A DNA stretch of 64,000 nt from Diplolepis rosae (lineage: Eukaryota > Arthropoda > Insecta > Hymenoptera > Diplolepididae): the NCBI GenBank assembly GCA_030998225.1, contig JAPYXD010000714.1:3720001-3784000 (forward strand). Direction: 5' to 3'. Every line of letters starts with the position of its first letter. Position 1 is the first letter of the stretch. The notes beneath the pieces are model-generated. The model saw only the letters and a list, made by a program, of their open reading frames with translations. It was not told where the DNA came from and searched no databases. This document shows, piece after piece, positions 44,143-64,000 of the stretch. A program made the position numbers and the translations under genes.

Positions 44143-44994
44143 TGTCACGTCCCGCGACGTATTTGAATGTATATAATACACACAGGCTGGTTTGAGTTAG
44201 AAATCTATGAGAAAATCGATAAAGGGGAATAGGGAGTAGGGGAAGTAGGGAGCAGTATAGGGCCCCTTCTCCTCTAAGAAGATATGACTAAGTCACGATT
44301 TTCGCTGACCATCAATTTGTATGAAAAAATATAAAAGAGGCCCACACCAAGAGAAAGCAGTCAGTAAATTCTTCGTCTAGTTCGACATATAAATTTTCCT
44401 TCGGATTTATAACCGGTCTCGCGACAATAGTCCAGTGCGGCATTTCAATTTAACTTCGAAAATCTCTGAGTTTGAGATTAATAAAATTCGACCGGGACAA
44501 TTTAAAATCAAAGTTCGGGAGTCGTAAAAGTCATCGTAGACTTGAATAGATCTTGTAAAGATCTTCGAACAGTGTCGTAAATTTGAATCACCGCCCTTTA
44601 CGGAATATACCTGTGCGGCCTATAACTCCGTCTCTCTCACACACTTGGAATACACCTGTGGGGATCCAGTACTTACAACTCACCGCCGTGTGGATTAAAC
44701 CTCAACACAACTTACGAATCATAAAGGTACCGAACCTCTCTCTCTCTATCTTTATTCTTTGTCTCTTTCTCACCCACGTACCAACCAGCCTGTGCCTACA
44801 TTATACAAGAATTGTCTTAACGAATGTGTATTCTGACCTTTTAACCAATAAAATAAATTCAATTTGTATTATTTTCATAATTATTGTGTCTTTCATTGAC
44901 TTATCCTCATCCCTAAGCGAGGATCATTCGATCCTAACTTAAAACGAGGAATCTTCGATCAAAGTAAGTATATTTGCGTACTTGTGACGTAACA
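44143..44994 (+). repeat. LTR-A 5' LTR
   Basis: Starts TGTCACGTCCCG, the same opening as LTR-B's LTR, and ends GACGTAACA just before the primer site. It contains TATAAAAG (44330-44337), an Inr-like TCAGT (44361-44365), AATAAA (44847-44852) and a donor-like AAAG/GTAAGTATA reading (GTAAGT at 44964). The exact 3' border is inferred from the TG...CA rule. Confidence 0.75.
44330..44365 (+). promoter_or_regulatory. LTR-A core promoter
   Basis: TATAAAAG followed about 31 bp later by TCAGT, the arthropod initiator consensus. Confidence 0.75.
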
Positions 44995-45008
44995 TACATC
45001 CTTTTTTC

Positions 45009-45026
45009 TGGTGCATCGGCCGGGAA
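45009..45026 (+). other. LTR-A primer-binding site (tRNA-Gly)
   Basis: TGGTGCATCGGCCGGGAA is fully complementary to the 3' 18 nt of a eukaryotic tRNA-Gly(GCC) including CCA. It lies 14 nt after the LTR. Confidence 0.85.
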
Positions 45027-45368
45027 ACACAAGTCAATTGAAAATTAACACATTGATTATTTCTAGTGAATAAATAAATGATTATAAAATATTATTTCAA
45101 CTTGTAACTTGAAATTTCAATAAAATAGATTTGTTAGATCACAAAGGGATTTGACCTTGAGGCTAACCTTAGTGATTTAATAATCAAATCATTTCTTTGA
45201 AATTTTATAATTTATATAAATTGTATAAAATAAAATAAGTTTGAAAAATCACGCAGGGATCTGACCTTGAGGCTAACCTAAGTGATTAAGTAACTTATCT
45301 TATTTAAAAAATTATTCTAATTTGTTAACTAAGTTTTGATTTAAGTTAATACAAACAAAAAAAGAACC

Positions 45369-45455
45369 GCACACGAGAGTATAAGTCCCTTTTGGGTACC
45401 TTGAACGGTCACCATTGATTACGATCATTGGGTAGGGCAAAGTTCGAAGTGCTTG
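45369..45455 (+). promoter_or_regulatory. Conserved leader RNA block, LTR-A copy
   Basis: About 80 nt shared with 47317-47394 in LTR-B: GCACACGA...ATAAGTCC, TTGAACGGTCACCAT, GGCAAA..TCGAAGTGCTT. Non-coding in both, so a packaging or translation element is likely. Confidence 0.65.
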
Positions 45456-45956
45456 TGATTGTATTGTTTATAACTTTAATTTTAACTCTGTTGTCACGTC
45501 CCGTGACTATCAATATTTATTTACAAAACAATATGTGTAAAGTTAATAATTTGAAAATATTAAACATGTAAAAGCAACAGGTATCTCTATATATCGATTG
45601 ACGAAAAACCCTAAATGTCTAGACATAACGAAATTGTATTCATTGGAGAACCCCATCGGAATGCGTTATAATGAGTTATGTACACAAACCATTAACCCTC
45701 CACTTCTTGCATAGTCCATTCACCTAAGGAAAATAGGGAGGCTAGAGGAACACGCAGGAAAATTTAGAAGACCTGTTACTGAGTGGGACTAAAATTAGAA
45801 TCTTGTCGCTATGGATACAAATTGAAGAAAATGTTGAAATCTTCGTAGAAACAATTATGGTCTCATCTGGCTGGAAGAAAAGCTTTTAGGGAACATCTTG
45901 CAAATGTCATGTCAGTATCGATCGAAAAATGGCGGATATCAACCGAAAAAACAGTC

Positions 45957-45995
45957 TATAAAAGCACCTGCAAATCCGCAAATCTCCAGTGACCG
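45957..45995 (+). promoter_or_regulatory. LTR-B core promoter
   Basis: TATAAAAG with a CCAGTG initiator-like sequence about 30 bp downstream. Confidence 0.75.
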
Positions 45996-46344
45996 TCGGA
46001 CCATCTTCAGAATCGCATCTCTTCTCAGAAAAGTAACAAGTTACCGTCAGACCATCTTGAACTTCAGATCTCTCTCAGAAAAGTAACAACCCCGGAATTC
46101 TCTCAGAAAAGTGACTCTCGAAAAAGTGACTTCAAGTTCGGTACTCCATACTTTTCTTAGAAAGCAAATTCAATCGTCACTCATTTCCATCGGTTTATCA
46201 GTTCATTCGTCATTGTGAATATCAATTGGATTATCAGTGCTGTTTAGGAATTTAAATATTGGATCTACATAAATTATCCTCATCATAGTACCCAGGGGAC
46301 ATAAGGATTTAGTGGACTCGAATCACTAACATAAAGCATTTACT

Positions 46345-46350
46345 GTAAGT
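46345..46350 (+). promoter_or_regulatory. LTR-B splice donor in the LTR
   Basis: GTAAGT downstream of the predicted start site. LTR-A has GTAAGT at the equivalent part of its LTR (44964). It would supply a 5' exon for spliced accessory mRNAs. Confidence 0.5.
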
Positions 46351-46650
46351 ACCAAATTTTTATTAAGTCTCTAATTTAACTTGAATATATCTATAAATTC
46401 TCCCCTTTCATTTTCAAGCTGCTTCCCAGGAGGAATTTTCAAGGGGAATTTCTATCACATTTGTATTCAAAATATTTAAATAAAAGGGTTAATAATTGTA
46501 ATATTCTTGAGTTTTATTGTTGGCTATCCTCAACCCTTGTTTCGGTTAAGATATCTTTCCAGGTTTCTTTTCCGAACAAAAAACGAGGAAAAATAAATAA
46601 TATAATAAAAGGTGGGTAACCAAGACGTTACAAACCCCTTTTATTATTTT

Positions 46651-46669
46651 TGGTGCATCGGCCCGGGAA
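46651..46669 (+). other. LTR-B primer-binding site (tRNA-Gly, one extra C)
   Basis: TGGTGCATCGGCCCGGGAA. It equals LTR-A's site with one additional C at the eleventh to thirteenth base, so it pairs imperfectly or with a variant tRNA-Gly. It starts 18 nt after the LTR. Confidence 0.8.
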
Positions 46670-48229
46670 ACTATAAGCCAACAATAAAAAGAATAAGGCA
46701 ATAAGAATTAATTGAATATTAAATTAAATTCAGTGCTTTTTTCAAGTGAAAATTTTTTTTTTCTCAGAATAAGATAAAATAATAATTTTATTATATGAAG
46801 AAATGAAAATTCCCCCTCTAATTAGATATTAAGGAAACTGTACAAAATACGACTTATATTTCAAGTGGAAAAAGTGTTTAGTGCTAAAAAATTGAAATTT
46901 AAATAAACAAAAATAAATGAATAGAAAGAAACTAAATAAAATCTTTTTTCAAAATTTTAATTAAAATTATTCGCAAATTTTAAATAAAACTTTTTTGTAA
47001 ATTTTGATTAAATCTTTTCCGAAAATTTTAAATAGATTTTTTTTCATAAATTTGAAACAAATTTTTTCGTATGTAATATTTAATTAAAATTTTTTCGCAA
47101 ATTTTAAATAAATTTTTTTTTTTGTGGCAAATTTACTTATTCATTTTTTTTTAAACACTTATTATAACACGATATTTTTATTTTTATTTTTGAATTTCTG
47201 CGAGTACACAGATTATTCAGGGCTTGTGCTTGAGTCATCCTTGTCTAATCTGGTACTGCAAGAATTCATCATTTGTTAACTAGGATTAAATTCAAGTTTT
47301 AAACAGAAAAAATAGAGCACACGAAAACATAAGTCCACTTTGGATTCGTTGAACGGTCACCATAATTTGGGTGTGGCAAACCTCGAAGTGCTTACATTTT
47401 ACTGTTTTCAACTTTTATTTTTTCTCTATTTGACAAAAAAACTGACACTTTCAATTTCTTGACGATTATCAGAATTCTGTAAGTATCTGAATTAAGCAGG
47501 AAATTTGTGCTTGAGTCGAGCCTAATTAATTTGATACTACAATAATTCTGATTTTCGACTGCCGTGATTTCTGTGAATCGTATAATTACCCAAGATTCTG
47601 TGCTTGAGTCTAGCTTGGCTAATTTTTAATCACAGAAGGATCGAATAATTGAAACCACAAAATAGGATATTAAAATAAAAATTTATTTTTATTGATTTTT
47701 ATTCCTGTGACTGAAATTTGTTTTGGGATATAACTTTTCACCTTGTGGGAAGTTATATTAAACAGCGATCAGCGAATTGCGCGCTCAGCTATCCCCAAAC
47801 TAGAGTTTCAGAAGCAGATTAAGAATTAATTTAATAAATTTTGTATCTGAAGTTTCGATTACTCTAATCAAAAATTTGTTTAAGGATATAGCTTTTCACT
47901 TTCGTGGAAGGTTATATTAAAAAGCGATTAGCGAATTGCGCGCTCAGCTATCCTTAAATTAGAGTTTTTGAATTTTAGAATTGCAATTTTTCCTATAAAA
48001 TTACACAAGTACACTATACATCAAATTTTTGTAACAAGGTATTTCTTTTTTAAAAATCAGAATTAAGTAAAAACTTTCAATAAAACAACAAGTAAAATAA
48101 ATTCTATAAATAAAAAAAAAAAAAATGAAATACGTATATTTGTAAATTTATTTGAAAAAAATATATATATATATATGTACTATATCAAAATATACATAAC
48201 TCATATTTTGTACAATACTGTATTTCTAC
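46670..48229 (+). promoter_or_regulatory. LTR-B long structured leader
   Basis: No coding sequence in 1.56 kb. It holds the block shared with LTR-A (47317-47394), three copies of GTGCTTGAGTC (47226, 47507, 47600), and two ~84-nt units (47725-47808 and 47883-47967). Each unit pairs GGATATA...CTTTTCAC with GGAAG.TTATAT and ends GCGAATTGCGCGCTCAGCTATCC. Repeated hairpins suggest RNA packaging, dimerisation or internal initiation. Before them the leader is very T-rich. Confidence 0.6.
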
Positions 48230-48745
48230 ATGTCTTTACCCCCAGTTAGATATACTCTTAAACGTTCCCGAGCAGGAAAACATATAGATGAGTTGAAATT
48301 ACCAACTTGCTAAATAGGAGAAATAAAAAACGACGTTGAATTTTCCGATTTATTTGAGCAATTGTTAGAGAAAAGAAGCAATTATATAAAAAACAAACTT
48401 TCGCGTAATTTAGGAAAGGAAAAGGATACAAAAATCGAATCTGTACCAGAAAACTTTGAAACGAAAAATCCCGAACCTGAATTAATATTGACTGAAAATA
48501 AAATTTCTGAATATCTACCCCCAATTATCGAAACTTTAAATATTTTCTCTGACTCGGAACCTGAAGCAAACTCGAGTCACTTTGTTCATAATAAAGATAA
48601 AATATCAAGTATTGAGGTTATCAGCATATTCTCAGATTCAGGATCTGAAACAGAAATTGAGGAACCCAGTTTTGCGCAGAATAAAATTTTTCTACCCAAA
48701 ATAACAAATATTTGCAGTTTAGGAAAAAAAATAAAGTTAAATTAA
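48230..48745 (+). CDS. Small acidic leader protein ORF with in-frame UAA
   Basis: An ATG at 48230 opens a basic 27-residue segment (YTLKRSRAGKHIDELK) ended by TAA at 48311-48313. The same frame then stays open to 48745 for about 140 codons. That part includes DLFEQLLEKRSN, two similar acidic motifs (IFSDSEPEAN and IFSDSGSETEIEE) and a basic end. The repeat of the SDSxxE motif and the kept frame suggest real coding. The TAA may be a mutation, or separate the ORF into two. No family was recognised. It lies 100 nt upstream of gag. Confidence 0.45.
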
Positions 48746-48847
48746 TTAAAGATTTTTAAGAAAAGAAAAGTTATTCTATTTTTGAAAAAAAGGGGTGATA
48801 TTAATAATATCAAATAAATTTATTTCCGAAAAATATGAGAAATATCA

Positions 48848-50509
48848 ATGTCGGTTCCATCACGAGACAGCAGTAAAAAAGGCACCATAACTCGTAGTCA
48901 AGCAAGGAAAAACCCAACTTTAGCAAAAGAAGTTGAAGAAAGTTCCCAAGTACCACTTAAACCAAAACGAAAAACTCAAGAAGGAAATCTACAATATTCC
49001 GAATCTTCAAGTAATTTAGATCAAACTGATCTTTTAGATATTAGCATAGGAAGTATTCCTGACGCTGAAACTAGTACTTTAAACAAATCAATTATTGACA
49101 CAAAAAACCCTAAGAGTCAATTTGTTGATAAATTTAAAACTTTTATTAAACGCAATAATAGTATAATTATTGCAGGTGATCAGTATAACGGTACACCCCA
49201 AATTAACCCTTCATTTGACGATACCATAGGGGATATAACACTCAGAGAAAAATCAATAATTGAAAGCATTACAGCAAACTCAACCTTGTGTGATAGAACT
49301 TTATGCCCAGATCAATTTGGTAATATTTCAAATAATAAAATTCTCACCACACCTCAAAAAAGATACGAATCAATAGATCCATTCGAAACAAAATCACAAC
49401 TAAATAGGACTCCAGAATCATTCAATCAAACAACAATATTTAAAAATCCAAATCTAGAATTTGAAAAAGTCCAAGAAACTTTACCAAATAAAATCAATGA
49501 AATTGCACCTGACGACTCTGCAAATATCGAACAGGCTTTTGATTCGCTAAAATCTTCACACCCGTCTTCAACCTCCAGGAAATCTAATAAAGAAATTTTA
49601 GCAAATAATTTACCAAATAATAATCTAACAACACAACCTACAGAAATGATGAATTTACCTACAAATCAACAAGTATCTCTACGAGATGCGTTAGAGATTG
49701 TCCCATACTTTGATGGCTCAAGTAAGGTACCATTGACAATTTTTATCGAAGCCTGCAAAGAAGCTAAAGAAATGGTCCCCAATGCAGAAGCTAATTTAGT
49801 AAAATTATTAAGAAGCAAACTTACAGGTGAAGCCAGAAGATGTATAATAGGAAATTATTATAATAATTTAGAAGATTTTATTTCAAAACTAAAAACAATT
49901 TTTTCACCATCAAAAACCGTATACCAATTACAAGGAGATTTAGGCAGGATATACATGTGGGAAAATGAAAGTGTTTTATCTTACGCAACACGCATACAAG
50001 AAATAGCAGCAGAAATCCTAGAATGTCATAAACAAAATAATAATGGCAAAGAAGCTGCTGAATTTGAAAGAAATCTGGAAAGAGACGCAATCGATTGTTT
50101 TCTACGAGGTTTAAAACCAGAATTGGAAATACGAATAGGAACAGCCAATAAATTTGACGAAATAGTAGAAAGAGCAATACGAGAAGAAAGAAATTTAACA
50201 GCCAGAAACGAACTGCGAAGAGGAAATAGACAACATTCACTAGTCCAAGAAGTTGAAAAATCATCACATAATAGTCGAGATTTTGCAAAAACAAATAAAA
50301 TAAATTTAGCACGAGAAGAACTAATAAAATGTCAAATCTGTCAGAAAATAGGCCACACAGCAGCAACCTGTTTTCAATATGTTCAACAGTTAACAAATAA
50401 AAATTCACAAAGCAATCAGTTTATAAATAACTTGACTAGACAAAATAATCAATACCAGGGAAAGAAGCAAGGTCAGGGAACGCAGTGGAGACCCCCACAG
50501 AGATACTAG
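48848..50509 (+). CDS. gag: Gag polyprotein of LTR-B
   Basis: A 553-aa structural protein that would form the cytoplasmic particle and bind element RNA. Residues 1-270 are Ser/Asn-rich and variable. Residues 275-455 match the retrotransposon Gag domain of LTR-A (QVSLRDALE, LTGEARRCI, YQLQGDLG, MWENESVLSYATRIQE, CFLRGLKPELEIR). A CCHC knuckle lies at C495, C498, H503 and C508. The frame ends with TAG at 50507-50509, and pol continues in exactly the same frame. Readthrough would yield Gag-Pol. The start is the first ATG, after a stop. Confidence 0.92.
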   Translation: MSVPSRDSSKKGTITRSQARKNPTLAKEVEESSQVPLKPKRKTQEGNLQYSESSSNLDQTDLLDISIGSIPDAETSTLNKSIIDTKNPKSQFVDKFKTFIKRNNSIIIAGDQYNGTPQINPSFDDTIGDITLREKSIIESITANSTLCDRTLCPDQFGNISNNKILTTPQKRYESIDPFETKSQLNRTPESFNQTTIFKNPNLEFEKVQETLPNKINEIAPDDSANIEQAFDSLKSSHPSSTSRKSNKEILANNLPNNNLTTQPTEMMNLPTNQQVSLRDALEIVPYFDGSSKVPLTIFIEACKEAKEMVPNAEANLVKLLRSKLTGEARRCIIGNYYNNLEDFISKLKTIFSPSKTVYQLQGDLGRIYMWENESVLSYATRIQEIAAEILECHKQNNNGKEAAEFERNLERDAIDCFLRGLKPELEIRIGTANKFDEIVERAIREERNLTARNELRRGNRQHSLVQEVEKSSHNSRDFAKTNKINLAREELIKCQICQKIGHTAATCFQYVQQLTNKNSQSNQFINNLTRQNNQYQGKKQGQGTQWRPPQRY

Positions 50510-53500
50510 GTGCTAAGCCTAAATCAACAAGGTAGTAGAAACAACTATAGAGATATAAATAGCTTTCCATCCCACCCTAATTTTTCCCAAGGAAACAGAT
50601 TTAATCAAAACCCAAACTTCAATCGAAATACCCAGAATATGTATCGCAATTTTAACCAAAATAACCAAGGTCGAAATTTTAATCAAAATCCAAATTTCAA
50701 TAGAAATTCTAATCAAAATCCGAATTTCAACAGAAATTTCAATAGAAATTTCAATCAAGGACCAAATTTAAACCAAGGTCAAAGTTTTAATCAAGTTCAA
50801 AATCAAGGTAGGCATTTCAATCAAAACCCCTATTTTAATCAAAGACCAAATTTTAATATGAATTACAATGAAAATAGAAAGCAAAATCCAAATTTTAATC
50901 AAAACCCAAATCAAGGCCAAAATTTTGAAGTTATTTGCTATTCGTGCAATACACCAGGACATACATCTAGGAATTGTAGCAAGAAAATAAATACTAATCA
51001 ACAATTACCACAAGAACCACAACAACAACAACCACTACAACAACAAGAATTTAATCATCAGGAAAACTCCAATGCAACTGAAAAACTTAATTTGAATACA
51101 AGTAATACAATTCCTCATATAATTCTATCAGCTGAAGGATTGAAAAATCCTATACACATGATGATTGATACAGGAGCCGGATCAAATTTAATCAAACAAC
51201 AAGCAGTCAAAACAAACGTAAAAATAAATAAATACGAATGCCTAAAACTAACAGGCATAAATGAACATCCTGTATTTACACTTGGCCAAATAACAATCGA
51301 TATTTTCGGCTACCTGACCACCCTCAACATAATACCGAACGAAGTACCTATCGAACATGATGGTATACTAGGTAGAGAGTTTTTCAGAAACAACAATGCA
51401 AAAATTAATTATGCAGAGAAACAACTTGAAATAAATGATAAAATTTACCCATTTGAAATGCAAGAAACTATATTAGTACCAGCAAGAACAGTTTCAGATT
51501 TTTATGTGAGAATTAAAAACAGTGAACAAAAGCAGGGATTTATTCCACAATTACACTTATGCAATGGAGTTTATTTAGGAAATGCAATTGTTTCTAATAA
51601 TAACAATAAAGCGTACCTGAAAATATTCAATACAAATACACAACCTCAAAGATTAACTATACCAACTATTGAATTGATAGACTTTGAAGAACTATCAATA
51701 CATGAGAAAACAATAAATCAGAATGACAGAAAATTTAATTTAGGAAATGAAAAATTTAATTTTTCGCAACAAATTTTTAATGATTTAATTACTCAGACAA
51801 ATGATTATCACCAATTATTCAATATTTCAAATAAAAATCGAGAAAACGAAATTAAAGAATTATTAAGATTAGATCATTTAAACAAAGAAGAAAAACAACA
51901 TGTTGAAAATTTAATTGAAAGATATGCAGATCGATTCCACATACCAGGAGAACCATTAGGAGCAACAACTGTTTTACAACACAACATTCCAACAACAGAT
52001 GATCAACCGATATTTTCAAAACAATATAGATTCCCTCCGGTACATAAAGAAGAAATTTCACGTCAAGTAAATGAACTAATTGAAAATAAAATTATTAAAC
52101 CCTCACAATCACCATATAATACACCTGTTTGGATTGTACCTAAAAAATTGGACTCACATGGAAATAGGAAATGGCGAATGGTACTTGATTTTCGCAAACT
52201 CAATGAAAAAACGATTGGAGATTCTTACCCTTTACCAAATATAATCGATATTTTAGATCAATTGGGATCTGCACAATATTTTTCCGTATTTGATCTTGCT
52301 TCCGGATTTCATCAAATAAAAATGAGCCCTGAAGACTCTCATAAAACAGCTTTTTCCACCCCTTATGGCCATTATGAATTTGACCGTATGCCATTTGGTT
52401 TAAAAAACGCACCAGCTACCTTTCAACGATTGATGGATTTAGTTTTAACAGGACTTCAAGGAACTGAATTATTTGTCTACTTAGATGACATTGTTTTATA
52501 TGCAAATTCTTTAGAAGAACATGAGGAAAAATTTAACAAACTAATGGAAAGATTAAGTGGAGCAAATCTCAAATTACAGCCAGATAAATGTGAATTTTTA
52601 CGCCCAGAAGTTGCTTATTTAGGACACATAATAGACAAGGAAGGAATACGACCAGACCCTAAAAAACTAGAGGCAGTAAACAATTTTCCGATACCAAAAA
52701 ACCCTAAAAATATTAAACAATTTTTAGGATTAGCTGGTTATTACCGAAGATTTATTGATGGATTTTCTAAAATTGCAACACCCTTGAATCAACTTTTAAA
52801 GAAAGATGTAAAATTTTATTGGTCTGAAAAACAACAAGAAGCATTTGAACTTTTAAAGGAAAAATTGTGTGAAGAACCTCTTTTACAAAGACCAGACTTC
52901 TCACAACCTTTCATTTTAACAACTGATGCGTCAGGATTCGCTATAGGAGGAATACTTTCTCAAGGTAAAATAGGTAAAGATAAACCTATAGCTTATACTT
53001 CTAGATCATTAAATGATTGTGAGAGAAAATATGATACATATGAAAAAGAAGCATTAGCAATTATTTATTGTGTAACATATTTTCGCCCTTACTTGTATGG
53101 ACGAAAATTTACCTTGGTCACAGACCATAAACCATTAGTATGGTTTCAAAACTCGAAGGACCCTTGCTCACGAGTAACTAGGTGGAAATTAAAATTGGCA
53201 GAATATGATTTTGATGTTGTATACAAAGCAGGTAAAACTAATGTGAATGCAGATGCTTTATCAAGAAATCCTATAGATTTAGAAGATATTGAAAACAATG
53301 ATATAAATGATAAAAACAATATTGAAATAAATTTAATTGAACAAGGAAATGCAAAATGCATATCTAGGTTTAAACGTGGAAACAAAGCACCAGAAATAAA
53401 TCTTACATGCAATGAAGAAATAAATTATGATATTATTGAAGAAAGAAAAATTGATGAGAGGAATTCTAAAGAAACTAAGGAATTTATGAACGGAGAAAAT

Positions 53501-56209
53501 TTAATTAAGAATAAGAATAATCGAAGAAATTATGATGAATTAAAATATAAGGTTATTGAAGATGGAAATAATGATAAAATTGGAGGAAATGAACAAATAC
53601 TGATAAACGATGGAAACTTAATTAAGAATATGAAAGATAAGAAATATAATGATGATATAAATTATGAAGATTTTGAAAAACGCAAAGCTTGTGAAAATTT
53701 TAAAGATATTGGACAATTAAACGAAGAAACTTTATTTAAAAATGTTGATAATAAAAAACGTTATTATGAGGATATTGATGAAGAAAAAATTGATAGAAAT
53801 GATACTGAACAATTATTAAATGAAGAATATTTACTGATAAATGATAAAGACAATGATAAAGACAATGATGAAAAATGTTGTATTAAATTGAATATTAAGG
53901 ATATAAAAAAAGGAGCAGTTTATGAAAATAATGAAAAAACTATTGAACAATTAGACGAAGAAGATTTATTTGACATAATTAATAAAAGATTGATTAATGT
54001 AATAATGAATAAAATGAATAATGAGGAAAATGGAAACACTTTTTGCAAATTGATCGATGAAGGAAATATTTCGGAAACATTTGTTTCGCAATTTTTGAAA
54101 TATGTCATGGATTCAATTCCAATTTTATTAGAAAATAAAAATAAATGCTATGCTATGCAAACAAGGAGTCAGTTAAAAAATTCAAAGAAGATAAGTAATA
54201 ATAATGAAGATTATATGAAAAATAAATTATTAAGAAATGTTGAAGTAACGAATGAAGTAAAAAGGAAACGTGGAAGGCCACGAAAAATTATTCAGGAAGT
54301 AAAATTACAGGAACAAATTAAGAATAGAGGTAGACCCAGAAAATGTATAAATAAATCACCTGAGATTAATAAAAAACGTAAATTTACGGAATCAGAAGAC
54401 GAATCCGATTCTGATCCAGATTATGATATTAAGCAAAAGCCAAAAGCAAATAAGAAGAGGAAACATTTTAAGAAAGATGAAGAATTAAATGAAGAAAATG
54501 ATTTTGAAACAAATTCTGATTTTTCAAGTGAAGACGAAAAAGAAGAAATCCAGGAAAATTTTCAAAATGTAGAACATGAAAACGAAAACGAACAACCGGA
54601 TATACCAGAAATAGAAAATTCTGAAAACTCTGATGATTGCGATTTTACAGAAGAAAGGCCACCCCCAGAGCCACCCCCTGATCAACCTTCAACATCTGGA
54701 TTGCCTAGAACACAGAAGAATATAATTGAATGCCGCGACCAATTAACAATGAGAAAGGATAATTATGCATATTTTGTAACTAATAAAGGAGAAGCTCGTG
54801 ACGTAGGTTCCAAACTTCTAGAAAAACGTGGAAAATTACCAAAATTTAAAAATTTACAAAAAGGAATAGTTACAAAATTACGGAAAGGACATCAATACCA
54901 TTTTGGACTTCCAATTGAAGATGAATTTAAGACAAGTCTAGGGGAAACGACTAAAGATATTAAGTTGGCAATTTATTCCCTTCATTCCATGGTAGAGGAA
55001 TTGAATCTTAAATCATTAAGTATTGCAAAATCACCACATATCAACAATGTTTTGTGGGAAGAAATTTTAGCCACATTAAAAATAGCATTTTTAAATTCTA
55101 CAGTCAAAATAATAATTTGTATTGGTATCATACAATACCCAACAAAAGAGCAAAGAAATCAATTAATCGAAGAAGCTCACTCATCTGCTATAGGAGGACA
55201 TAAAGGAGTAACAAAAACTTATAATAGAATCAGACAAAGATACTATTGGGAAAATATGAAATCGGACATACAAAAATATATACAACTCTGTTTACAATGT
55301 CAACTTAAAAAACTTGTTCGGGTCAAAACAAAAAACCCTTTGATAATTACCGATACTCCAGGAACAGCATTTGAGAAAATTTCAATGGATATTGTTGGAA
55401 AATTACCAATAACTTCAGCACAAAATCAGTATATACTTACAATTCAGGATAATTTTACTAAATACTCTTTAGCAATCCCACTCCCTAATCATCAAGCGGG
55501 AACAATAGCAGATGCTTTTGTTAAGAAATTTATTTGCATATATGGCTCACCAAAAGCAGTTTTAACAGATCAAGGAGCAGATTTTCTAAGCAATTTAATG
55601 AGAAAAATGGCAAAGCGATTTCGTATACGTCAGTTTAAAACTACTGCTTATCATCCTCAATCAAATGGATCATTGGAAAGATCCCACCACGTTCTTAAAG
55701 AATATCTTAAACAATTTATTGAAAATAATGCAGAATGGGATGACTGGATTGAATTAGCAATGTTTTCATATAACACGAGTGTTCACGAAGGAACAAAATG
55801 CACACCTTACGAATTAGTCTTTGGGAAATTAGCACGTTTACCATCTAGCGATCCTTTACCGGAACATGAAAAAATGGAAACTTATGATATGTACATGACA
55901 AAATTAATTACAAAATTACATGAAATGCGTGGAATAGCAAGACAAAATTTAATAGCAGCGAAAGAAAAATCGAAAGAATATTATGACAGAAAAATTAATC
56001 CACAAAATTTTAAAATCGGAGATAGTGTATTTTTACTGGAAGGTGGAGAACTAAAGAAGTTCGAAAATCAATACTCAGGACCATACGAAGTACTTGAAAT
56101 ATTAGGAAAAGGAAACATAAAAATTTCAGTCAAAAATAAACCTAAAATCGTTAATATTAATAGACTCAGACTTTCATACATAACCCCAAAAAACAACCAA
56201 TCAGATTAG
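50510..56209 (+). CDS. pol: Pol polyprotein of LTR-B, in frame after the gag UAG
   Basis: A 1899-codon frame numbered from the codon after the UAG. It opens with Asn/Phe/Gln-rich repeats (about 20-135) and a second CCHC knuckle (C143, C146, H151, C156). It then has an aspartic protease with DTGAG (D220), and reverse transcriptase with YLDD at 657-660. RNase H begins with TDASG at D806. A ~480-residue Lys/Glu/Asn-rich insert follows (about 930-1420), with two GRPRK AT-hooks and an acidic run. Integrase has zinc ligands H1557, H1564, C1594 and C1597 and a DD35E triad D1627, D1687 and E1723. A GPY/F module lies at 1857-1859. No ATG is needed if made by readthrough. No stops occur. This is Ty3/Gypsy (Metaviridae) domain order. 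Confidence 0.95.
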   Translation: MLSLNQQGSRNNYRDINSFPSHPNFSQGNRFNQNPNFNRNTQNMYRNFNQNNQGRNFNQNPNFNRNSNQNPNFNRNFNRNFNQGPNLNQGQSFNQVQNQGRHFNQNPYFNQRPNFNMNYNENRKQNPNFNQNPNQGQNFEVICYSCNTPGHTSRNCSKKINTNQQLPQEPQQQQPLQQQEFNHQENSNATEKLNLNTSNTIPHIILSAEGLKNPIHMMIDTGAGSNLIKQQAVKTNVKINKYECLKLTGINEHPVFTLGQITIDIFGYLTTLNIIPNEVPIEHDGILGREFFRNNNAKINYAEKQLEINDKIYPFEMQETILVPARTVSDFYVRIKNSEQKQGFIPQLHLCNGVYLGNAIVSNNNNKAYLKIFNTNTQPQRLTIPTIELIDFEELSIHEKTINQNDRKFNLGNEKFNFSQQIFNDLITQTNDYHQLFNISNKNRENEIKELLRLDHLNKEEKQHVENLIERYADRFHIPGEPLGATTVLQHNIPTTDDQPIFSKQYRFPPVHKEEISRQVNELIENKIIKPSQSPYNTPVWIVPKKLDSHGNRKWRMVLDFRKLNEKTIGDSYPLPNIIDILDQLGSAQYFSVFDLASGFHQIKMSPEDSHKTAFSTPYGHYEFDRMPFGLKNAPATFQRLMDLVLTGLQGTELFVYLDDIVLYANSLEEHEEKFNKLMERLSGANLKLQPDKCEFLRPEVAYLGHIIDKEGIRPDPKKLEAVNNFPIPKNPKNIKQFLGLAGYYRRFIDGFSKIATPLNQLLKKDVKFYWSEKQQEAFELLKEKLCEEPLLQRPDFSQPFILTTDASGFAIGGILSQGKIGKDKPIAYTSRSLNDCERKYDTYEKEALAIIYCVTYFRPYLYGRKFTLVTDHKPLVWFQNSKDPCSRVTRWKLKLAEYDFDVVYKAGKTNVNADALSRNPIDLEDIENNDINDKNNIEINLIEQGNAKCISRFKRGNKAPEINLTCNEEINYDIIEERKIDERNSKETKEFMNGENLIKNKNNRRNYDELKYKVIEDGNNDKIGGNEQILINDGNLIKNMKDKKYNDDINYEDFEKRKACENFKDIGQLNEETLFKNVDNKKRYYEDIDEEKIDRNDTEQLLNEEYLLINDKDNDKDNDEKCCIKLNIKDIKKGAVYENNEKTIEQLDEEDLFDIINKRLINVIMNKMNNEENGNTFCKLIDEGNISETFVSQFLKYVMDSIPILLENKNKCYAMQTRSQLKNSKKISNNNEDYMKNKLLRNVEVTNEVKRKRGRPRKIIQEVKLQEQIKNRGRPRKCINKSPEINKKRKFTESEDESDSDPDYDIKQKPKANKKRKHFKKDEELNEENDFETNSDFSSEDEKEEIQENFQNVEHENENEQPDIPEIENSENSDDCDFTEERPPPEPPPDQPSTSGLPRTQKNIIECRDQLTMRKDNYAYFVTNKGEARDVGSKLLEKRGKLPKFKNLQKGIVTKLRKGHQYHFGLPIEDEFKTSLGETTKDIKLAIYSLHSMVEELNLKSLSIAKSPHINNVLWEEILATLKIAFLNSTVKIIICIGIIQYPTKEQRNQLIEEAHSSAIGGHKGVTKTYNRIRQRYYWENMKSDIQKYIQLCLQCQLKKLVRVKTKNPLIITDTPGTAFEKISMDIVGKLPITSAQNQYILTIQDNFTKYSLAIPLPNHQAGTIADAFVKKFICIYGSPKAVLTDQGADFLSNLMRKMAKRFRIRQFKTTAYHPQSNGSLERSHHVLKEYLKQFIENNAEWDDWIELAMFSYNTSVHEGTKCTPYELVFGKLARLPSSDPLPEHEKMETYDMYMTKLITKLHEMRGIARQNLIAAKEKSKEYYDRKINPQNFKIGDSVFLLEGGELKKFENQYSGPYEVLEILGKGNIKISVKNKPKIVNINRLRLSYITPKNNQSD

Positions 56210-56247
56210 AAAGAATTAAAATTAAATAAAAATGATTGCAGATCACA

Positions 56248-56421
56248 ATGGAACCAAAACATCGCCAACGCATTGATTTATTATGTGATTTAATCGTTCG
56301 TCAAGTTGATATAAAAGCATTATGGCCATATTTATTTCTAAATGGGATATTTAACTACGACGACTACAATGTACCAAATTGGTCTAAAGATACAAAAAAA
56401 TTCAGAAATAATGAGACATAA
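56248..56421 (+). CDS. CARD-like accessory ORF
   Basis: An ATG at 56248 opens 57 codons. The sequence HRQRIDLLCDLIVRQVD, then ALWPYLFLNGIFNYDDYN and VPNW, resembles helices 1-3 of insect CARD domains as found at the N terminus of Dronc-type initiator caspases. CARDs mediate homotypic binding in apoptosis and innate immunity. It ends at TAA (56419-56421). The frame then stays open for about 70 codons to a run of 16 A (56627-56642), and a further open stretch in a shifted frame reaches 56740. A GTAAGT...TTGTAG pair (56429-56492) looks like a 64-nt intron but does not remove the stop. An acceptor-like TTGCAG lies just upstream. Family call is tentative. Confidence 0.45.
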   Translation: MEPKHRQRIDLLCDLIVRQVDIKALWPYLFLNGIFNYDDYNVPNWSKDTKKFRNNET

Positions 56422-56739
56422 TTTTTCTGTAAGTTTCTAACTTACAAGAATTTTAACGTTGACAAAAGAATAATTTTTACATTGTATTGTAGAGTGGGAA
56501 ATCAAACAGTAATAGCTACAAGAAATATAGCAATAATAACCGAAAATAAAGCAGAATTTGGACAAATAAAATTGATACAAGAACATTATGACTTTTGTGA
56601 AGAAAAATATGAAGATTCAATAGCTCAAAAAAAAAAAAAAAACTAAACTCCAAAATAAAGGTAGTCAAACTATATCTCAAACAATTGTTCAAAAGAAACT
56701 ACAAAAACTAAACAGAAAACAATTTTCAGGACATTTATA

Positions 56740-57451
56740 AACCTTTACACATAAGAAAATTCCATCTGCGAATTCTATCTAAGATTATAAATTTTCTTTC
56801 AGGTCACATATTAATACTATCTGTTTTTCTTTTTCTAGAACATAACCTGCAAAGAAGTGACATATGGAAAAATGTTATTTCTTTTCAATTTTATCATACT
56901 GCTTAACTCACTTTTTGCCTACAAATCTAACTTTAGTGAATATAATTAAAAATAAAATTCGAAAATTCGAAAGGGCTTTACTTTTAAAGTATTGAAAAGA
57001 AATTTAAGTTTTTTGATGAAAAAGGCACTTAATGACTTACATAGCCATTTATGAAATACACAGTTTATACAAAGAATGGAATTAAGTACACAGAACTTTT
57101 CAACCGAACAACACTAAATTCATTTCAACAAAACTTCAATCAAAACTTTATTGGACTCAAATTGTGAGAAGTAATAAAATTTAGATAAAAACTGATATTA
57201 TGATTGATTGAACAGATTAATAGTTTTTATAAATAACGAATTGAACAAAAATAAGGTAGAATTAAATTTATTCCAGAAAGTATTATTTTACAAAGGAGTC
57301 ACTCACAAATAATACAAATAATCAAACATACTTACCTTTAGTAAATAAGACTCCACTTACTTTCAAACAAAATTTGAATAAATCAAGAGAATAACTTACA
57401 AATTGAGGAAAACATTTTTCTTTGAATCTTAATTGAATCACATTTTACATA
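56740..57451. other. Between accessory ORFs, no gene seen
   Basis: AT-rich with an acceptor-like TTTCTTTCAG near 56803. No frame of note. Confidence 0.4.
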
Positions 57452-57920
57452 ATGACTCCAACAAGTGAAAATCCTCCAACAAATTTTTCAAGATATATAG
57501 ATGGTGTTTGTCCACAAGATCATCCAAGAGCTTATCAAATTCTCTTGAATTTTTCATGCATTTCCTTATTACCGGAAGTAGAAAAAATATACGTCCATAA
57601 AATCACAATGTTCAAAATTTGCGAATTATGATATCTACAGATACATATTCCTTTTCGCTTCAATTATAACCTTGAAAATTCTTGGCATTCAATAGTAAAA
57701 AAAAAATGAAGTTATAAATACAAAATGCCAATTTTGCGAAACAAAATTAGTAAGACGATTTCAACCAGCATATGAATGTTTAGATTGCATAGAGCAATAT
57801 TTAGATCATATTGGTAGAATAAACTTAGGATATGAAATCAAAGTAAAAAATCATTGTTTGTTTGCGAATATTACGAACGAAATACATATAAACGAATTAA
57901 ATGGAATTGATGTAATTTGA
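57452..57920 (+). pseudogene. Broken accessory ORF with zinc-binding segment
   Basis: An ATG at 57452 starts 59 codons (NFSRYIDGVCPQDHPRAYQI) closed by TGA at 57629-57631. The same frame continues open to a run of A near 57697-57706, and coding resumes in another frame at 57708. That last part has CQFC then CLDC 18 residues on, a zinc-ribbon-like arrangement, ending 57920. One stop plus one homopolymer shift break it. It could be decay, assembly error at the A-run, or recoding. No family recognised. Confidence 0.45.
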
Positions 57921-58018
57921 AATAATTCTGTCAAAATAATTTGCATATAATTTATAACATAATATTTAAAAAATTAAAGTTAATTTAAAATATTTTCAAA
58001 AAAAAACTACGAAAATTC

Positions 58019-58028
58019 TGTTTCAGAA
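58019..58028 (+). promoter_or_regulatory. Splice acceptor before dsRBD ORF
   Basis: TTCTGTTTCAG ends immediately before AAAATGG, the start of the dsRBD ORF. With the GTAAGT in the LTR it could produce a subgenomic mRNA. Confidence 0.5.
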
Positions 58029-58029
58029 A

Positions 58030-58470
58030 ATGGAAGGAAAAATTGAAGGCAGAAATATTACAATAACCAACAGTCCAGTCCAAACTATACATGAAATAAG
58101 CTTAGAATATGACTTTGACGATCCAATATTTGAAGTTGTTCAATGTAATTCGTCAAATCATATCCCAATATTTGTAGCAACATGTAAAATTCAAAAAAAT
58201 TCAAAAATGTATGTAAGTATAGGAGAAAAGTCAAAAACAAAAAAAGCATCTAAACATAGTTCAGCACATAAGTTATTAGAATCTTTGTATAAAGACTATT
58301 TGTTTACCGAACGAAAAGAACCTGAAATTAAATTCGAAAAATCTATGGAAAATGAATCAGAAAAAGTTATGTTATATAAATGGACCGGCACATGTGAAAG
58401 ATGCTATCAAAGGGGTCACAAACCAATGAATTGTACTGCGCCAAAGCGAAATAAAAAGTTCATAGAATAA
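58030..58470 (+). CDS. dsRNA-binding protein with CCHC zinc knuckle
   Basis: An intact 146-aa frame. Residues 15-90 match a double-stranded-RNA-binding domain. Helix 1 is SPVQTIHEISLEY, followed by the PIFEVV strand that starts the beta sheet. A loop and strand follow (HIPIFVATCKI), then strand YVSIGE. Helix 2 carries the RNA-phosphate-binding lysines (KTKKASKHSSAHKLLESL, K69-K75). A linker follows, then a knuckle C122, C125, H130, C135 and a basic tail. Proteins with a lone dsRBD often bind or shield dsRNA. In viruses they can suppress Dicer-dependent silencing. It is the last ORF before the first polypurine tract. Role in silencing suppression, RNA packaging or translation is inference. Confidence 0.85.
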   Translation: MEGKIEGRNITITNSPVQTIHEISLEYDFDDPIFEVVQCNSSNHIPIFVATCKIQKNSKMYVSIGEKSKTKKASKHSSAHKLLESLYKDYLFTERKEPEIKFEKSMENESEKVMLYKWTGTCERCYQRGHKPMNCTAPKRNKKFIE

Positions 58471-58600
58471 ATAAAAATAAAAGCGAATATGAAATTTTTA
58501 TGACTACGTGATGTGACACACTATTAATAAAGGAAAAATAAAGTAAGTAAATGGAAATTAAACAAGTTTGAACATGTTGATTTTATCCCCATGTCCAAAC

Positions 58601-58633
58601 AAAAAGGGGGGAGGTGTCACGTCCCGTAACTAT
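58601..58633 (+). other. Internal polypurine tract plus LTR-start copy
   Basis: AAAAAGGGGGGAGG followed at 58615 by TGTCACGTCCCGTAACTAT. The final 19 bases match the true LTR start at 18 of 19. About 45 bp upstream of the tract also resembles the sequence before the real tract at 60149. Confidence 0.8.
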
Positions 58634-60148
58634 TACAAATGCGACTTAAAAATAAGAAATTTTTTCTCTTTCTTGAAATTATATTAATTCACATTTAACC
58701 TGCATGGAAATATATTGGAAGCAATTGATTATATTCACTGATTATGTATTTGTTCGATTAATTCAAATATTTGATATAATATTGATAAAAATGATCATAA
58801 ATGCATGTTCGATATTGTATACCAGCTTTTATATTACCAGAAAAGTAATAATAACAAAATGTAATGTATTAAAATAAAAAAATGTTAGTAGCGTTTAGTA
58901 AGTAACTAAAGGTTGGCTTTGAATGCTGTTACTCTATAATTAATGATATTAGCGAGAAAACTTGACGAATTTGCTTAATGGCGTAATCTAATACTTATGT
59001 TTACGAAGTTCAAAAAATATGCTTTATACATTTTACATAATATATCTTGTCTATATTTGAATTATATCCAAATAAAAATTTAAAATATGCGCAAATTAAT
59101 GTTTTTGAAAAATATGTATGTAGACAAACTTATAAAACATTTCATGTGACAAAGTGAATTCTTTTTCAAATAGATAAATGTTGAATTGAAAACTATACTG
59201 AATTATTTAAAAGACGAAATAGTATATGCTCGACGATAAAAAATTTATTCATAAAAAAATGAATTGAAATTAAAAAAAAATGAATTGAAATTAAAAAAAA
59301 ATGCAAAAATAAATACAAACATTTATGCGTGTAATGAATAACAATTTAATATCGTAATTCATTTATATCAATATGAGCGTAGTTATTTCATTATAGACAA
59401 ATAATGTTTATTCGAAACATATGCTGAATTATTTAAATAAAAAATAAAAATAGAACGAAATGTGTATGTGTATGTATGCAAATTCATTCATTAAATTAAT
59501 AATGAAGCAACAAAAATTTTTAAAAAAATTATGTGTGTAATAAATGTTTCTCTTATATTCAAAAATAAAGGGCATTTTACGGAATTATATTTAGCCATAT
59601 TTAAGTATTTATGAAATAATTGAAATTTATTCATTAATATGTAGGTTTTAGGGTTTTGCGAACAAGAATTTGTAAAATGCGCTATCGTACTAATTGCAAT
59701 TAATGAATAAAAATTATACAAAATCAAAATCTCACCAAAAAAAAATAATTTTAACGTTTTGCATTATATTCATTTAGAATTATGTTTGTCCAAATATTTA
59801 AGATAATGTATCGACATATCTTGTAATTGTATAACAAGCTTCAGTGTATTCATTCTAATTACTAAATATTTAAACATTTCGGATTATAACAATTGTGTAT
59901 GTTATCGGTATAATTGTGAAAAAATACTTCTATGTATCAAAACTCAATGTATTCAATCTAATGTATTAGCAAAGAACACAATTATTAACCTAATAAGTTC
60001 GTGTCAATGTAAATCACGAATGATAAGAATATCTCTTGATTCATTTTGTCAAAAGAAATTTTGATATTAACAAAAGTTTAATTTGAATCGATTATTTAAC
60101 TTGGTTGCGAAAGTTCCAACACGGTCATTACATCCCCGTGTTCGAACT
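58634..60148. other. 1.5 kb segment between two polypurine tracts
   Basis: AT-rich and non-coding, with a 20-bp tandem ATGAATTGAAATTAAAAAAA near 59258. It begins like an LTR and ends like an internal 3' end, but the middle does not match the flanking LTR. It may be a relic LTR plus partial element captured by recombination. Confidence 0.5.
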
Positions 60149-60159
60149 AAGGGGGGAGG
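60149..60159 (+). other. LTR-B polypurine tract
   Basis: AAGGGGGGAGG directly before the 3' LTR, the plus-strand primer. Confidence 0.9.
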
Positions 60160-61300
60160 TGTCACGTCCCGTGACTATCAATATTTATTTACAAAACAAT
60201 ATGTGTAAAGTTAATAATTTGAAAATATTAAACATGTAAAAGCAACAGGTATCTCTATATATCGATTGACGAAAAACCCTAAATGTCTAGACATAACGAA
60301 ATTGTATTCATTGGGGAACCCCATCGGAATGCGTTATAATGAGTTATGTACACAAACCATTAACCCTCCACTTCTTGCATAGTCCATTCACCTAAGGAAA
60401 ATAGGGAGGCTAGAGGAACATGCAGGAAAATTTAGAAGACCTGTTACTGAGTGGGACTAAAATTAGAATCTTGTCGCTATGGATACAAATTGAAGAAAAT
60501 GTTGAAATCTTCGTAGAAACAATTATGGTCTCATCTGGCTGGAAGAAAAGCTTTTAGGGAACATCTTGCAAATGTCATGTCAGTATCGATCGAAAAATGG
60601 CGGATATCAACCGAAAAAACAGTCTATAAAAGCACCTGCAAATCCGCAAATCTCCAGTGACCGTCGGACCATCTTCAGAATCGCATCTCTTCTCAGAAAA
60701 GTAACAAGTTACCGTCAGACCATCTTGAACTTCAGATCTCTCTCAGAAAAGTAACAACCCCGGAATTCTCTCAGAAAAGTGACTCTCGAAAAAGTGACTT
60801 CAAGTTCGGTACTCCATACTTTTCTTAGAAAGCAAATTCAATCGTCACTCATTTCCATCGGTTTATCAGTTCATTCGTCATTGTGAATATCAATTGGATT
60901 ATCAGTGCTGTTTAGGAATTTAAATATTGGATCTACATAAATTATCCTCATCATAGTACCCAGGGGACATAAGGATTTAGTGGACTCGAATCACTAACAT
61001 AAAGCATTTACTGTAAGTACCAAATTTTTATTAAGTCTCTAATTTAACTTGAATATATCTATAAATTCTCCCCTTTCATTTTCAAGCTGCTTCCCAGGAG
61101 GAATTTTCAAGGGGAATTTCTATCACATTTGTATTCAAAATATTTAAATAAAAGGGTTAATAATTGTAATATTCTTGAGTTTTATTGTTGGCTATCCTCA
61201 ACCCTTGTTTCGGTTAAGATATCTTTCCAGGTTTCTTTTCCGAACAAAAAACGAGGAAAAATAAATAATATAATAAAAGGTGGGTAACCAAGACGTTACA
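60160..61300 (+). repeat. LTR-B 3' LTR (1141 bp)
   Basis: Same sequence as 45492-46632 except a G for A (in CATTGGGGAACC) and a T for C (in GAACATGCAGG). Preceded by the polypurine tract. Confidence 0.92.
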
Positions 61301-61932
61301 CTGTTAAGGAACAGAATATTTTTATTTGCAAAAATTGTCCAAGGATCTGAGCTCGAGCCTAACTTGTCCAGTCTAGAAAAAAAAATAAATTGTGCATAAC
61401 TCGAATCTTATCTGATCCTTGTTATAAACAATTTTATTTATTTAAAAACAATTTATGACTCAATAAATTAATAAAATAGATCATTTTAATTTACAGGACA
61501 CACGTGGTTGGTACAAAATATATATATATATATATATATATTGTTATAATTTTAAGAAATGTATTATTTAACATTATAATTTTACGAAAATTGAGCGATT
61601 ATTTATTTATTTGAATATTTTATAGAATTATATTTTTATTTTATTATCTTATTTCCTAATAAAAGAATAAAAATATTAATTATTGTTATAAACAAATATA
61701 AATAATTAAATTATATCTTGAAATTATTATAATTTTTTTTTTTTGAATTTTAATAAATTAAAATTATATTTTTACTAATTTCACTTTATTTACAAACAAA
61801 ATTTTACATGTAGTTTTTTTAAATTGTTATAAACAATCGATAATTAACAATAAATAATGAAATAATGATCAAACCATATCAAGTGAAAATTCTAGTAAAA
61901 CTAGCGGATTTCATTCAAGTTTCTATCCAGAT
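61301..61932 (+). other. LTR-A leader, continued
   Basis: Begins with the second TSD copy CTGT. It holds a GATCTGAGCTCGAGCCTAAC motif resembling the GATCTGACCTTGAGGCTAAC repeats at 45150 and 45257, and a (TA) run near 61520. No coding is recognised before gag. Confidence 0.6.
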
Positions 61933-63057
61933 TTGAGCATTGTGACAGGATCTAGTAATCAAGATCAAACATTAACGAACGAGTTATCTTATTTTGACGG
62001 ATCTAATTTGCTAAGCTCAACGGTAATAACAATAGAAAATAGAAATTTAAAAGAAAAATTGAAAAACTCATTGGCACGCGACTCTCTAATTAGTAACAAC
62101 GATAGCGACGACGACAAAAGCGATACAGAAGTCATAAATCAGGATAATCCCGTAATAGTAAACAACGAAGAGATGGCCGTAGCCATACCTAACAGCCAGC
62201 AGGTATCCTTACGCGACGCGCTAGAGGTGGTCCCTTTGTTCGACGGAAGTAACCTCCCATTGTCCCATTTTATTGAGGGTTGCATGGAAGCAAAGGCAAT
62301 GCTGCCGACACCTGCTGCCCAAGAAAATCTTGCACGTCTATTGAGAGGTAAATTGTCTGGTGAGGCACGAAAATGTATTTTTGGGTCAACGTATGCAACA
62401 ATAGAGGAATTAATAGAAAAATTGAAAAGAGTATATGCCCCTGCGAAAAGCGTATATCAATTGCAGGTAGATTTAGGTAATACATTTATGTGGGAAAGAG
62501 AAAATGTCCTTTCCTATGCTGCTAGAATTAAAGAAAATGCTGATAGAATAGAAGATGCTCACAGACTTAATAATGACGGTCAGGTAGATAATGCTTTTAA
62601 ACAAAATTTAGAAAGAGATGTAATTCAATGTTTTATACGCGGTTTGCGTCCTGAGTTAGAAATTCGTGTGGAAGAAAAGGACACATTTAAGGAAGTAATT
62701 AATGATACAATAGACATAGAACGAAGATTGGCTGCAAGTTCTGCACTGCGAAGAAATAAAAATACTGATTATTTAAAAACCGAAGAATCAACTAATAATA
62801 ATAAAAATAATAAAACCACCCGATTCAACGTAGCACTTGAAAATAAAACTATTTGTTTAATTTGTAAAAAACCAGGTCACACAACTGAAAAATGTTTTCA
62901 TTTAAGTAAAGCTCAAGATGCAGTTATTAACAATAAACAAAAAAAAATTTTGCATCCTAACCAACAAGGATATAGTAATTTCAATGGTCAAAGAAGTAAT
63001 AATAATAATAATTTTGCAAAAACAATTACAATAATTTTCCAAATAACAATTTTTTAA
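61933..63057 (+). CDS. gag: Gag of LTR-A (no in-frame ATG at 5' end)
   Basis: An open frame of 374 codons whose core matches LTR-B Gag at roughly half of positions: QVSLRDALEVVPLFDGS, LSGEARKCIFG, VYQLQVDLG, MWERENVLSYAARIKE, CFIRGLRPELEIRV. A CCHC knuckle reads CLICKKPGHTTEKC. The frame opens after a TGA near 61857 without an ATG; the first in-frame Met (MAVAIPNS) is at about 62172, so the start is lost or supplied otherwise. Coding then shifts by one base near 63013-63030 into an Asn-rich frame. Function is as for LTR-B Gag. Confidence 0.85.
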   Translation: MSIVTGSSNQDQTLTNELSYFDGSNLLSSTVITIENRNLKEKLKNSLARDSLISNNDSDDDKSDTEVINQDNPVIVNNEEMAVAIPNSQQVSLRDALEVVPLFDGSNLPLSHFIEGCMEAKAMLPTPAAQENLARLLRGKLSGEARKCIFGSTYATIEELIEKLKRVYAPAKSVYQLQVDLGNTFMWERENVLSYAARIKENADRIEDAHRLNNDGQVDNAFKQNLERDVIQCFIRGLRPELEIRVEEKDTFKEVINDTIDIERRLAASSALRRNKNTDYLKTEESTNNNKNNKTTRFNVALENKTICLICKKPGHTTEKCFHLSKAQDAVINNKQKKILHPNQQGYSNFNGQRSNNNNNFAKTITIIFQITIF

Positions 63058-63479
63058 GAAATAAAAATTATAATTTTAATAATAACAACAATCATTTTTT
63101 ACAAAATAGAAATAACAATTATAGGAACAATAATAATAATTTTTTACAACAAAGATACAACAATAATAATAATTTTCCTAGAAATTTTTACAATAATAAC
63201 AATAATTTTAATAATACTAATAGACAATTGAATCCAGGACAGTATAAAAACTTTAACTCAGGACAGTTTCAAAATCGAAATAAACCATATGAAAATAGAT
63301 TTTTACAAAATAATAACACTCAACAAAATTCAAATTATACTGAAATAATTTGCAATTACTGTAAACAACCCGGTCATTTAGTACGAGACTGCAAGATACG
63401 ACCAAATAACCAATCACAAACAGCTAATCAGGAAAACTCCAAAGCTCTCCCCAGCACGGATGCACTGAGGAAAGCATAA
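63020..63479 (+). pseudogene. LTR-A Asn-rich tail with second zinc knuckle
   Basis: In the -1 frame relative to gag, an Asn/Phe/Gln-rich stretch leads to CNYCKQPGHLVRDC, equivalent to the N-terminal segment of LTR-B Pol. It ends with TAA at 63477-63479. The layout mirrors LTR-B, where the equivalent segment follows a UAG. Confidence 0.75.
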
Positions 63480-63554
63480 ATCGAGAACGACTGGTATCCA
63501 CTTCTAACGATCATACAACAACAACAATAAATATTTCAAAGTCCACTTCAATTC

Positions 63555-64000
63555 CATCAATTATAATATCAACGGAAGGTCTAAAAAATCCAACACACAT
63601 GATGATTGATACTGGTGCTGCTCGAAATTTAATTAAACAAAAGGTTCTCAACCCTGAAGTACCCATAAATAGCCAAAACTATTGAAACTTACAGAAATTA
63701 ATGATTTACCACTTTACACGTTAGGACAGGTAAAAATAAACATTTTTGGTTATCCAACGATATTTAACATTATTCCCAATGAAGTCCCAGTAGAAGAAGA
63801 TGGAGTATTAGGATCAGAATTTTTTCAAGATAACAGTGTGAATATAAACTATACTTCAAAATGCTTAGAAATTGAGAACCACTGTTACCCTTTTAAATCT
63901 ACCAATACATTTACTATTCCAGCTCGAACAGTTACAACATTTTATGTTAATATAAAAAATACAGAAAAGAGTGAAGGGTATGTACCTCGATTACATATCC
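63555..64000 (+). pseudogene. pol: LTR-A retropepsin, broken, runs off window
   Basis: The frame with MMIDTGAARNLIKQK (catalytic DTG) matches LTR-B's protease but stops at a TGA near 63685. The following sequence (IFGYPTIFNIIPNEVPVEE, then GVLGSEFF) continues in another frame to the window end. The element is therefore not able to make Pol. Confidence 0.8.

Follow-up and report, generated by a model that had tools for sequence, protein, structure and literature searches.

A Ty3/Gypsy-type retrotransposon with an accessory gene for a double-stranded RNA-binding domain protein

Insect viruses carry RNAi suppressors built on a double-stranded RNA-binding domain (dsRBD). Animal retrotransposons, which are themselves targets of small RNAs, may do likewise. 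A compact candidate is found in the 64,000-nt stretch of DNA analysed here (hereafter the window), in which a young Ty3/Gypsy-type LTR retrotransposon of ~15.8 kb (45492-61300) displays open gag, pol and accessory ORFs. One of the latter (58030-58470, + strand), coding for 146 amino acids, was originally predicted to combine a full dsRBD with a CCHC knuckle. The ORF belongs to the element as a true accessory gene and, should its product act as we propose below, the element may disarm cell defences in the manner of certain insect viruses.

Assignment to the Ty3/Gypsy group follows from the LTR pair, the target site duplication and the protease-RT-RNase H-integrase arrangement, that is, from domain order rather than from a tree. 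The 5′ LTR (45492-46632, +) and the 3′ LTR (60160-61300, +, with a polypurine tract just upstream) differ at 2 of 1141 positions when compared within the window, and they are flanked by the duplicated target site CTGT (45488-45491 and 61301-61304). A stretch resembling a primer binding site (46651-46671, +) is presumably tRNA-Gly-like with one extra C. The gag ORF (48848-50509, +, 553 aa), named from its position and a sub-threshold knuckle, stops at a TAG, and pol continues in the same frame (open frame 50510-56209, +; the ORF listed there has its first ATG at 50639). At 50507-50512 this TAG is followed by a G, gag and pol being in one frame. The sequence suggests that Gag-Pol may be produced via stop read-through rather than frameshift. 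In pol, a CCHC knuckle is followed by the protease motif, RT and RNase H, then by a long charged insert containing AT hooks and finally by integrase. Pfam cut-offs are exceeded by the knuckle and by the RT, RNase H and integrase domains, while the protease was recognized by eye from a DTGA motif together with profile matches below cut-off. The charged insert (53270-54970) contains an AT_hook match of 21.9 bits (Pfam cut-off 17.4).

The 3′ boundary of the element required some attention. A relic made of a polypurine tract and an LTR start (58564-58633, +) is 80% identical to 60111-60178 over 70 columns, and its LTR-like start at 58615 stands 1545 bp before the true 3′ LTR start at 60160. It may be what is left of an older LTR or else an additional site for priming the plus strand. 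A separate element ending at 58615 and containing the dsRBD ORF was considered and excluded, because the relic spans only ~70 bp and because the near-identical LTRs and one target site duplication bound 45492-61300. The predicted location of the ORF, behind pol and ahead of the 3′ LTR in a recently inserted Gypsy-type element, is thus borne out with 60160, not 58615, as the start of that LTR. The ORF may have been brought in by an older recombination. Outside the element, an LTR-like start at 44143 and a similar primer-site stretch near 45010 lie upstream and a gag-like frame (61861-63057) lies downstream; 51108-51203 and 63549-63643 share 80% DNA identity over 98 columns. From these resemblances the element seems to be nested inside an older related Gypsy element (44143-45491 and 61305-64000). 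The 3′ part of this outer element extends past the window end. A search of the whole window against Rfam at gathering scores gave no match.

The 146-aa ORF is intact from ATG to stop at exactly the predicted position, and its product can be divided into a dsRBD (residues ~16-88), a linker and a CCHC knuckle (residues 122-135). Residues 16-86 match the Pfam dsrm profile (PF00035) over the whole model (1-66 of 66) with 31.1 bits and an E-value of 3.5e-7, above the gathering cut-off of 23 bits. Used as a single query against PDB sequences with phmmer, the protein retrieved Loquacious (E 0.0022); a profile of 21 family members retrieved it first with an E-value of 5.1e-6, followed by TARBP2, Staufen and others. 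dsRBDs contact RNA through a KKxxK motif in helix 2 and a GPxH loop. Here the helix 2 motif is present (K71, K72, K75), and the loop has its histidine (His44) with no Gly-Pro ahead of it. The knuckle was identified by direct reading as CX2CX4HX4C (residues 122, 125, 130 and 135), none of the Pfam knuckle models being listed for the window protein. For this ORF Pfam listed dsrm, a weak match to Dicer_dimer and no env-type domain, and on these profiles an envelope ORF was rejected.

The predicted fold agrees with the profile. Given 26 family sequences including relatives of ~40% identity, AlphaFold produced the alpha-beta-beta-beta-alpha topology of a dsRBD (helix 16-26, strands 33-39, 47-56 and 59-64, helix 71-89), with pLDDT values of 84-96 in 10-residue blocks over residues 21-90 and a whole-protein mean of 72.8. 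A model from a poorer alignment of 19 sequences, many of them fragments, had a mean pLDDT of 38.0 and was unusable. Foldseek returned 10 PDB matches at E ≤0.001 and 458 at E ≤10; judged by their titles, the best 50 of these 458 belong to dsRNA-binding, RNase III or Dicer-family proteins, Loquacious leading the list. Superposed on the dsRBD of 1di2, the model reaches a TM-score of 0.87 by target length (rmsd 1.7). In the Foldseek viral library, six matches were found at E ≤0.001, led by a DRBM protein from Tipula oleracea nudivirus (137 aa); the seventh match (E 0.0015) comes from iridovirus Liz-CrIV and is likewise a DRBM protein, 173 aa long. A lack of any dsRBD match, which would have told against the original prediction, was thus looked for and not observed.

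Relatives of the protein are numerous. A first protein search returned 19 sequences and a second 59, each including the window's own, which leaves 58 relatives, 57 of them at an E-value of 1.2e-4 or better and one (P0059) at 0.077. Among relatives covering the positions concerned, the helix 2 lysines are kept in 32/39 (K71), 33/39 (K72) and 34/39 (K75), the successive knuckle residues in 28/34 (C), 32/33 (C), 28/32 (H) and 27/30 (C), and the loop His44 in only 18/32. Fourteen of the 58 were scanned with Pfam: ten reach the dsrm cut-off (P0002-P0006, P0008, P0011, P0024, P0025 and P0040), including P0024 and P0025 at ~40% identity, three fall 1.5 to 3.4 bits below it (P0027, P0032 and P0035) and P0026 has no match. 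For P0035 another dsRBD model, DND1_DSRM, scores slightly better than dsrm, likewise below cut-off, and zf-CCHC_3 matches below cut-off were found in P0024, P0025 and P0027. The 90%-identity cluster containing the window protein has seven member sequences from three contigs, so that near-identical ORFs are on record, perhaps originating from the same genome. In a viral contig collection, four stretches fit a pattern and none is a relative. The profile, the predicted fold and these relatives together exclude a chance ORF and uphold the claim of a full dsRBD and a CCHC knuckle in one ORF. That this is a genuine family of dsRBD proteins is, in our opinion, nearly certain, and on profile, predicted fold and conservation the predicted product is a small RNA-binding protein with one dsRBD, a variable linker and a CCHC knuckle.

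What would such a protein do for a retrotransposon? We consider suppression of RNAi to be its main role with a probability of about one half. The protein would coat dsRNA arising from sense and antisense transcription of the element or from structured regions, and the coated dsRNA would not be cut into siRNAs by Dicer-2 and its partner Loquacious; the knuckle would presumably add affinity for the element's own RNA. We propose such shielding because of the likeness to iridovirus 340R and DCV 1A. The 340R protein of IIV-6 (173 aa) binds siRNAs as well as long dsRNA and prevents processing by Dicer-2; it suppresses RNAi via its dsRBD, its C-terminal part also being required (PMC4231766). Like 340R, the window protein is small, with one dsRBD of ~70 aa, a C-terminal extension and the helix 2 lysines (PMC4231766); unlike 340R, it is borne by a retrotransposon, ends in a CCHC knuckle and is known here from sequence and model. 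The Liz-CrIV protein retrieved by fold has the same size as 340R, a likeness of size and not an established identity of genes. Like viral-type RNAi suppressors, the window protein is small and has one intact dsRBD, yet a dsRBD alone is not predictive of suppression because 340R also needed its C-terminal part. In addition, insect retrotransposons are silenced mainly by piRNAs, without any need for dsRNA. A block of Dicer-2 may consequently bring the element little.

The main rival to dsRNA shielding, which we hold to be rather unlikely, is a role akin to that of nucleocapsid (NC). The dsRBD and the knuckle would bind the folded genomic RNA of the element as a chaperone or packaging factor and aid its dimerisation, packaging or reverse transcription. 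The knuckle indeed looks like that with which pol begins (21 bits, cut-off 20.8) and like the sub-threshold knuckle of gag. Moreover, in P0002-P0005 the C-terminal part (residues 115-146) is better kept than the linker, with 31, 30, 24 and 25 of 32 residues against 13, 14, 15 and 12 of 26. Gag and pol, however, appear to have their own knuckles already, a dsRBD brings nothing obvious beyond NC, and RNAi suppression is known for a small dsRBD protein from an insect virus. A second rival accepts the RNAi pathway as target and changes the means: the dsRBD would bind Dicer or partners of the Loquacious/R2D2 type and divert them instead of hiding RNA. The dsRBDs of Loquacious and TARBP2, both Dicer partners, are by profile and by fold the nearest solved structures to that of the window protein. 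Loquacious and TARBP2 have three dsRBDs, whereas the window protein has one, together with a knuckle, and is encoded by a mobile element. The retention of KKxxK, which marks RNA-binding rather than pairing-only dsRBDs, speaks against such mimicry, and we deem it improbable.

Whether the ORF does anything for the element at all was approached through its conservation. Neutral evolution was simulated 400 times per relative, to the observed identity, for seven chosen near-full-length relatives. The ORF was still open with its ATG in 6, 5, 1 and 5 of 400 runs for P0002-P0005 (67-74% identity) and in 0 of 400 runs each for P0024, P0025 and P0035 (40%). These sequence-based simulations favour constraint, although survival of open frames is a biased measure because the database lists open frames only and because long relatives were chosen. 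A test of conservative replacements (BLOSUM) was weak, since 49, 7, 59, 88, 82, 67 and 52 of 400 simulations equalled the real pairs; the replacement pattern thus lends little support to selection. A host or viral dsRBD gene captured by the element and carried without any present role would account for the many fragmentary relatives, for the complete set of helix 2 lysines and knuckle residues, seven in all, in only 10 of the 58, and for the shortening of an adjacent ORF in the window copy (see below). Against such a passenger stand similarly built open frames at identities as low as ~40% and the simulations, biased as these are toward open and long frames, and we see only a slim chance for it.

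Suppression of RNAi also supposes that the protein is made. The 5′ LTR contains a TATAAA at 45957 and a 5′ splice donor-like ACT|GTAAGT (GT at 46345), and there is no ATG between 45960 and 46350. With the transcription start taken from the TATA box and exon 1 assumed to be 360 bases long, a leader of this length was free of ATG by chance in 32 of 2000 shuffles at the dinucleotide level and in 3 of 2000 plain ones. A candidate 3′ splice acceptor, TTCTGTTTCAG (58016-58026, +), ends three bases before the ATG of the dsRBD ORF, from which it is separated by AAA. Its tract is weak (6/12 pyrimidines), and a stricter acceptor rule is passed by 22 other sites between the LTRs and failed by the candidate. 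Residues upstream of the ORF start are present in 8 of the 58 relatives, six of which keep Phe-Gln-Lys, as encoded by TTTCAGAAA; those of P0047 are in another frame and read as the same DNA would, and those of P0002 are Phe-Cys-Ser-Arg-Lys. Signals placed in this way would join the AUG-free LTR leader (donor 46345) to the acceptor just before the ORF, and the dsRBD protein is probably translated from this putative spliced subgenomic RNA.

The shortened neighbour is a 57-aa ORF directly after pol (56248-56421, +), the first 49 residues of which correspond to the first half of a family matching the CARD profile (PF00619). A search with this ORF returned 52 proteins, four of them with a precomputed PF00619 label; full-length relatives have 92-97 aa and match CARD. 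Thirteen of the 52, chosen for length, were scanned with Pfam: six reach the CARD cut-off of 23.9 bits (P0062, P0072, P0078, P0087, P0102 and P0106), P0067, P0097 and P0105 are up to 0.5 bit below it, P0104 and P0100 have weak matches, and P0079 and P0085 have none. The window copy is neither full-length nor matched by the CARD profile, Pfam giving no match on the frame around 56248-56421: only its first 49 residues align with full-length relatives and the second half was not found within the window. String tests detected the second-half motif in 17 of the 52 relatives and a tail like that of the window copy in 8. A profile of the family found nothing significant in the PDB (best E 0.12, Dronc); the 14 PDB entries returned include caspase-9, CED-3 and RAIDD, but E-values in the same range were obtained for Sly1 and a plasmodial surface protein, so that the CARD reading rests on Pfam. 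The longest contig given for P0111 (CARD family) and for P0010 (dsRBD family) has 8294 bases in both cases, and P0111 also matches window positions 56733-56918, beyond the CARD start. This is an indication, not proof, that both genes occur together in another copy.

It is tempting, if doubtful on balance, to see in these two genes a counter-defence cassette carried by this Gypsy lineage between pol and the 3′ LTR. The dsRBD-knuckle protein would act against Dicer-2 silencing and the CARD-only protein would block caspase activation in cells with an active element. In the window copy the first of these genes is intact and half of the second has been lost, while relatives with a full-length second gene exist. 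A viral precedent is offered by GIV-CARD, a 91-aa protein with a CARD for which inhibition of apoptosis was reported (PMC4457926); its size is close to that of the full-length relatives, and it comes from an iridovirus, a DNA virus, of fish (PMC4457926). If confirmed, the CARD family would represent a gene with which a retroelement targets cell death.

Retroelements with additional ORFs or domains are already known, as exemplified by bdelloid ORF3s, helicase LINEs and plant accessory ORFs (PMC7264820 for the latter). Bdelloid LTR retrotransposons carry, like the window element, additional and diverse ORF3s, and ORF3s of LTR elements are read from spliced messages; theirs are without reported dsRBD, the terms dsRBD, dsRNA and RNAi being absent from the available text of that paper (PMC5408684). 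The insect TRAS LINEs contain a viral RNA helicase domain (PMC5563155), for which weak silencing suppression in a plant assay has been cited (PMC6338049). They too are insect retrotransposons with an accessory domain; unlike the window element, they are non-LTR elements with the helicase in ORF2 and no dsRBD. Closest are the accessory ORFs of plant Tekay elements, also Ty3/Gypsy, whose models weakly resemble DRBM folds (TM 0.35-0.37, E 0.04-0.25) in maize and sorghum, with no such likeness given for sunflower, and for which modulation of silencing via dsRNA binding was already proposed (PMC11728184). Unlike the Tekay 5′aORF, the window ORF follows pol and has a sequence-level dsrm match above a curated cut-off (PMC11728184). 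The original statement that no third ORF of a Gypsy element had been described with a dsRBD must be qualified by this weak Tekay likeness (PMC11728184), and it stands for animals within the listed open-licence literature: the titles and abstract openings listed from open-licence PubMed Central showed no dsRBD or CARD ORF in any animal LTR retrotransposon.

Other short frames and mobile elements were noticed in the window. Two more short open frames, 57437-57631 and 57699-57920 (+), separate the CARD piece from the dsRBD ORF. The second of them, 73 aa long and containing two CxxC pairs, weakly matches C1_2 (E 0.0013, sub-threshold). Three short ORFs after pol gave no significant match to PDB sequences (best E 0.62, 1.5 and 1.2). 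Away from the Gypsy element, frames of hAT-type transposases at 23641-25887 (+) and 11943-12485 (-) contain Dimer_Tnp_hAT above the Pfam cut-off, the former being open over 748 codons.
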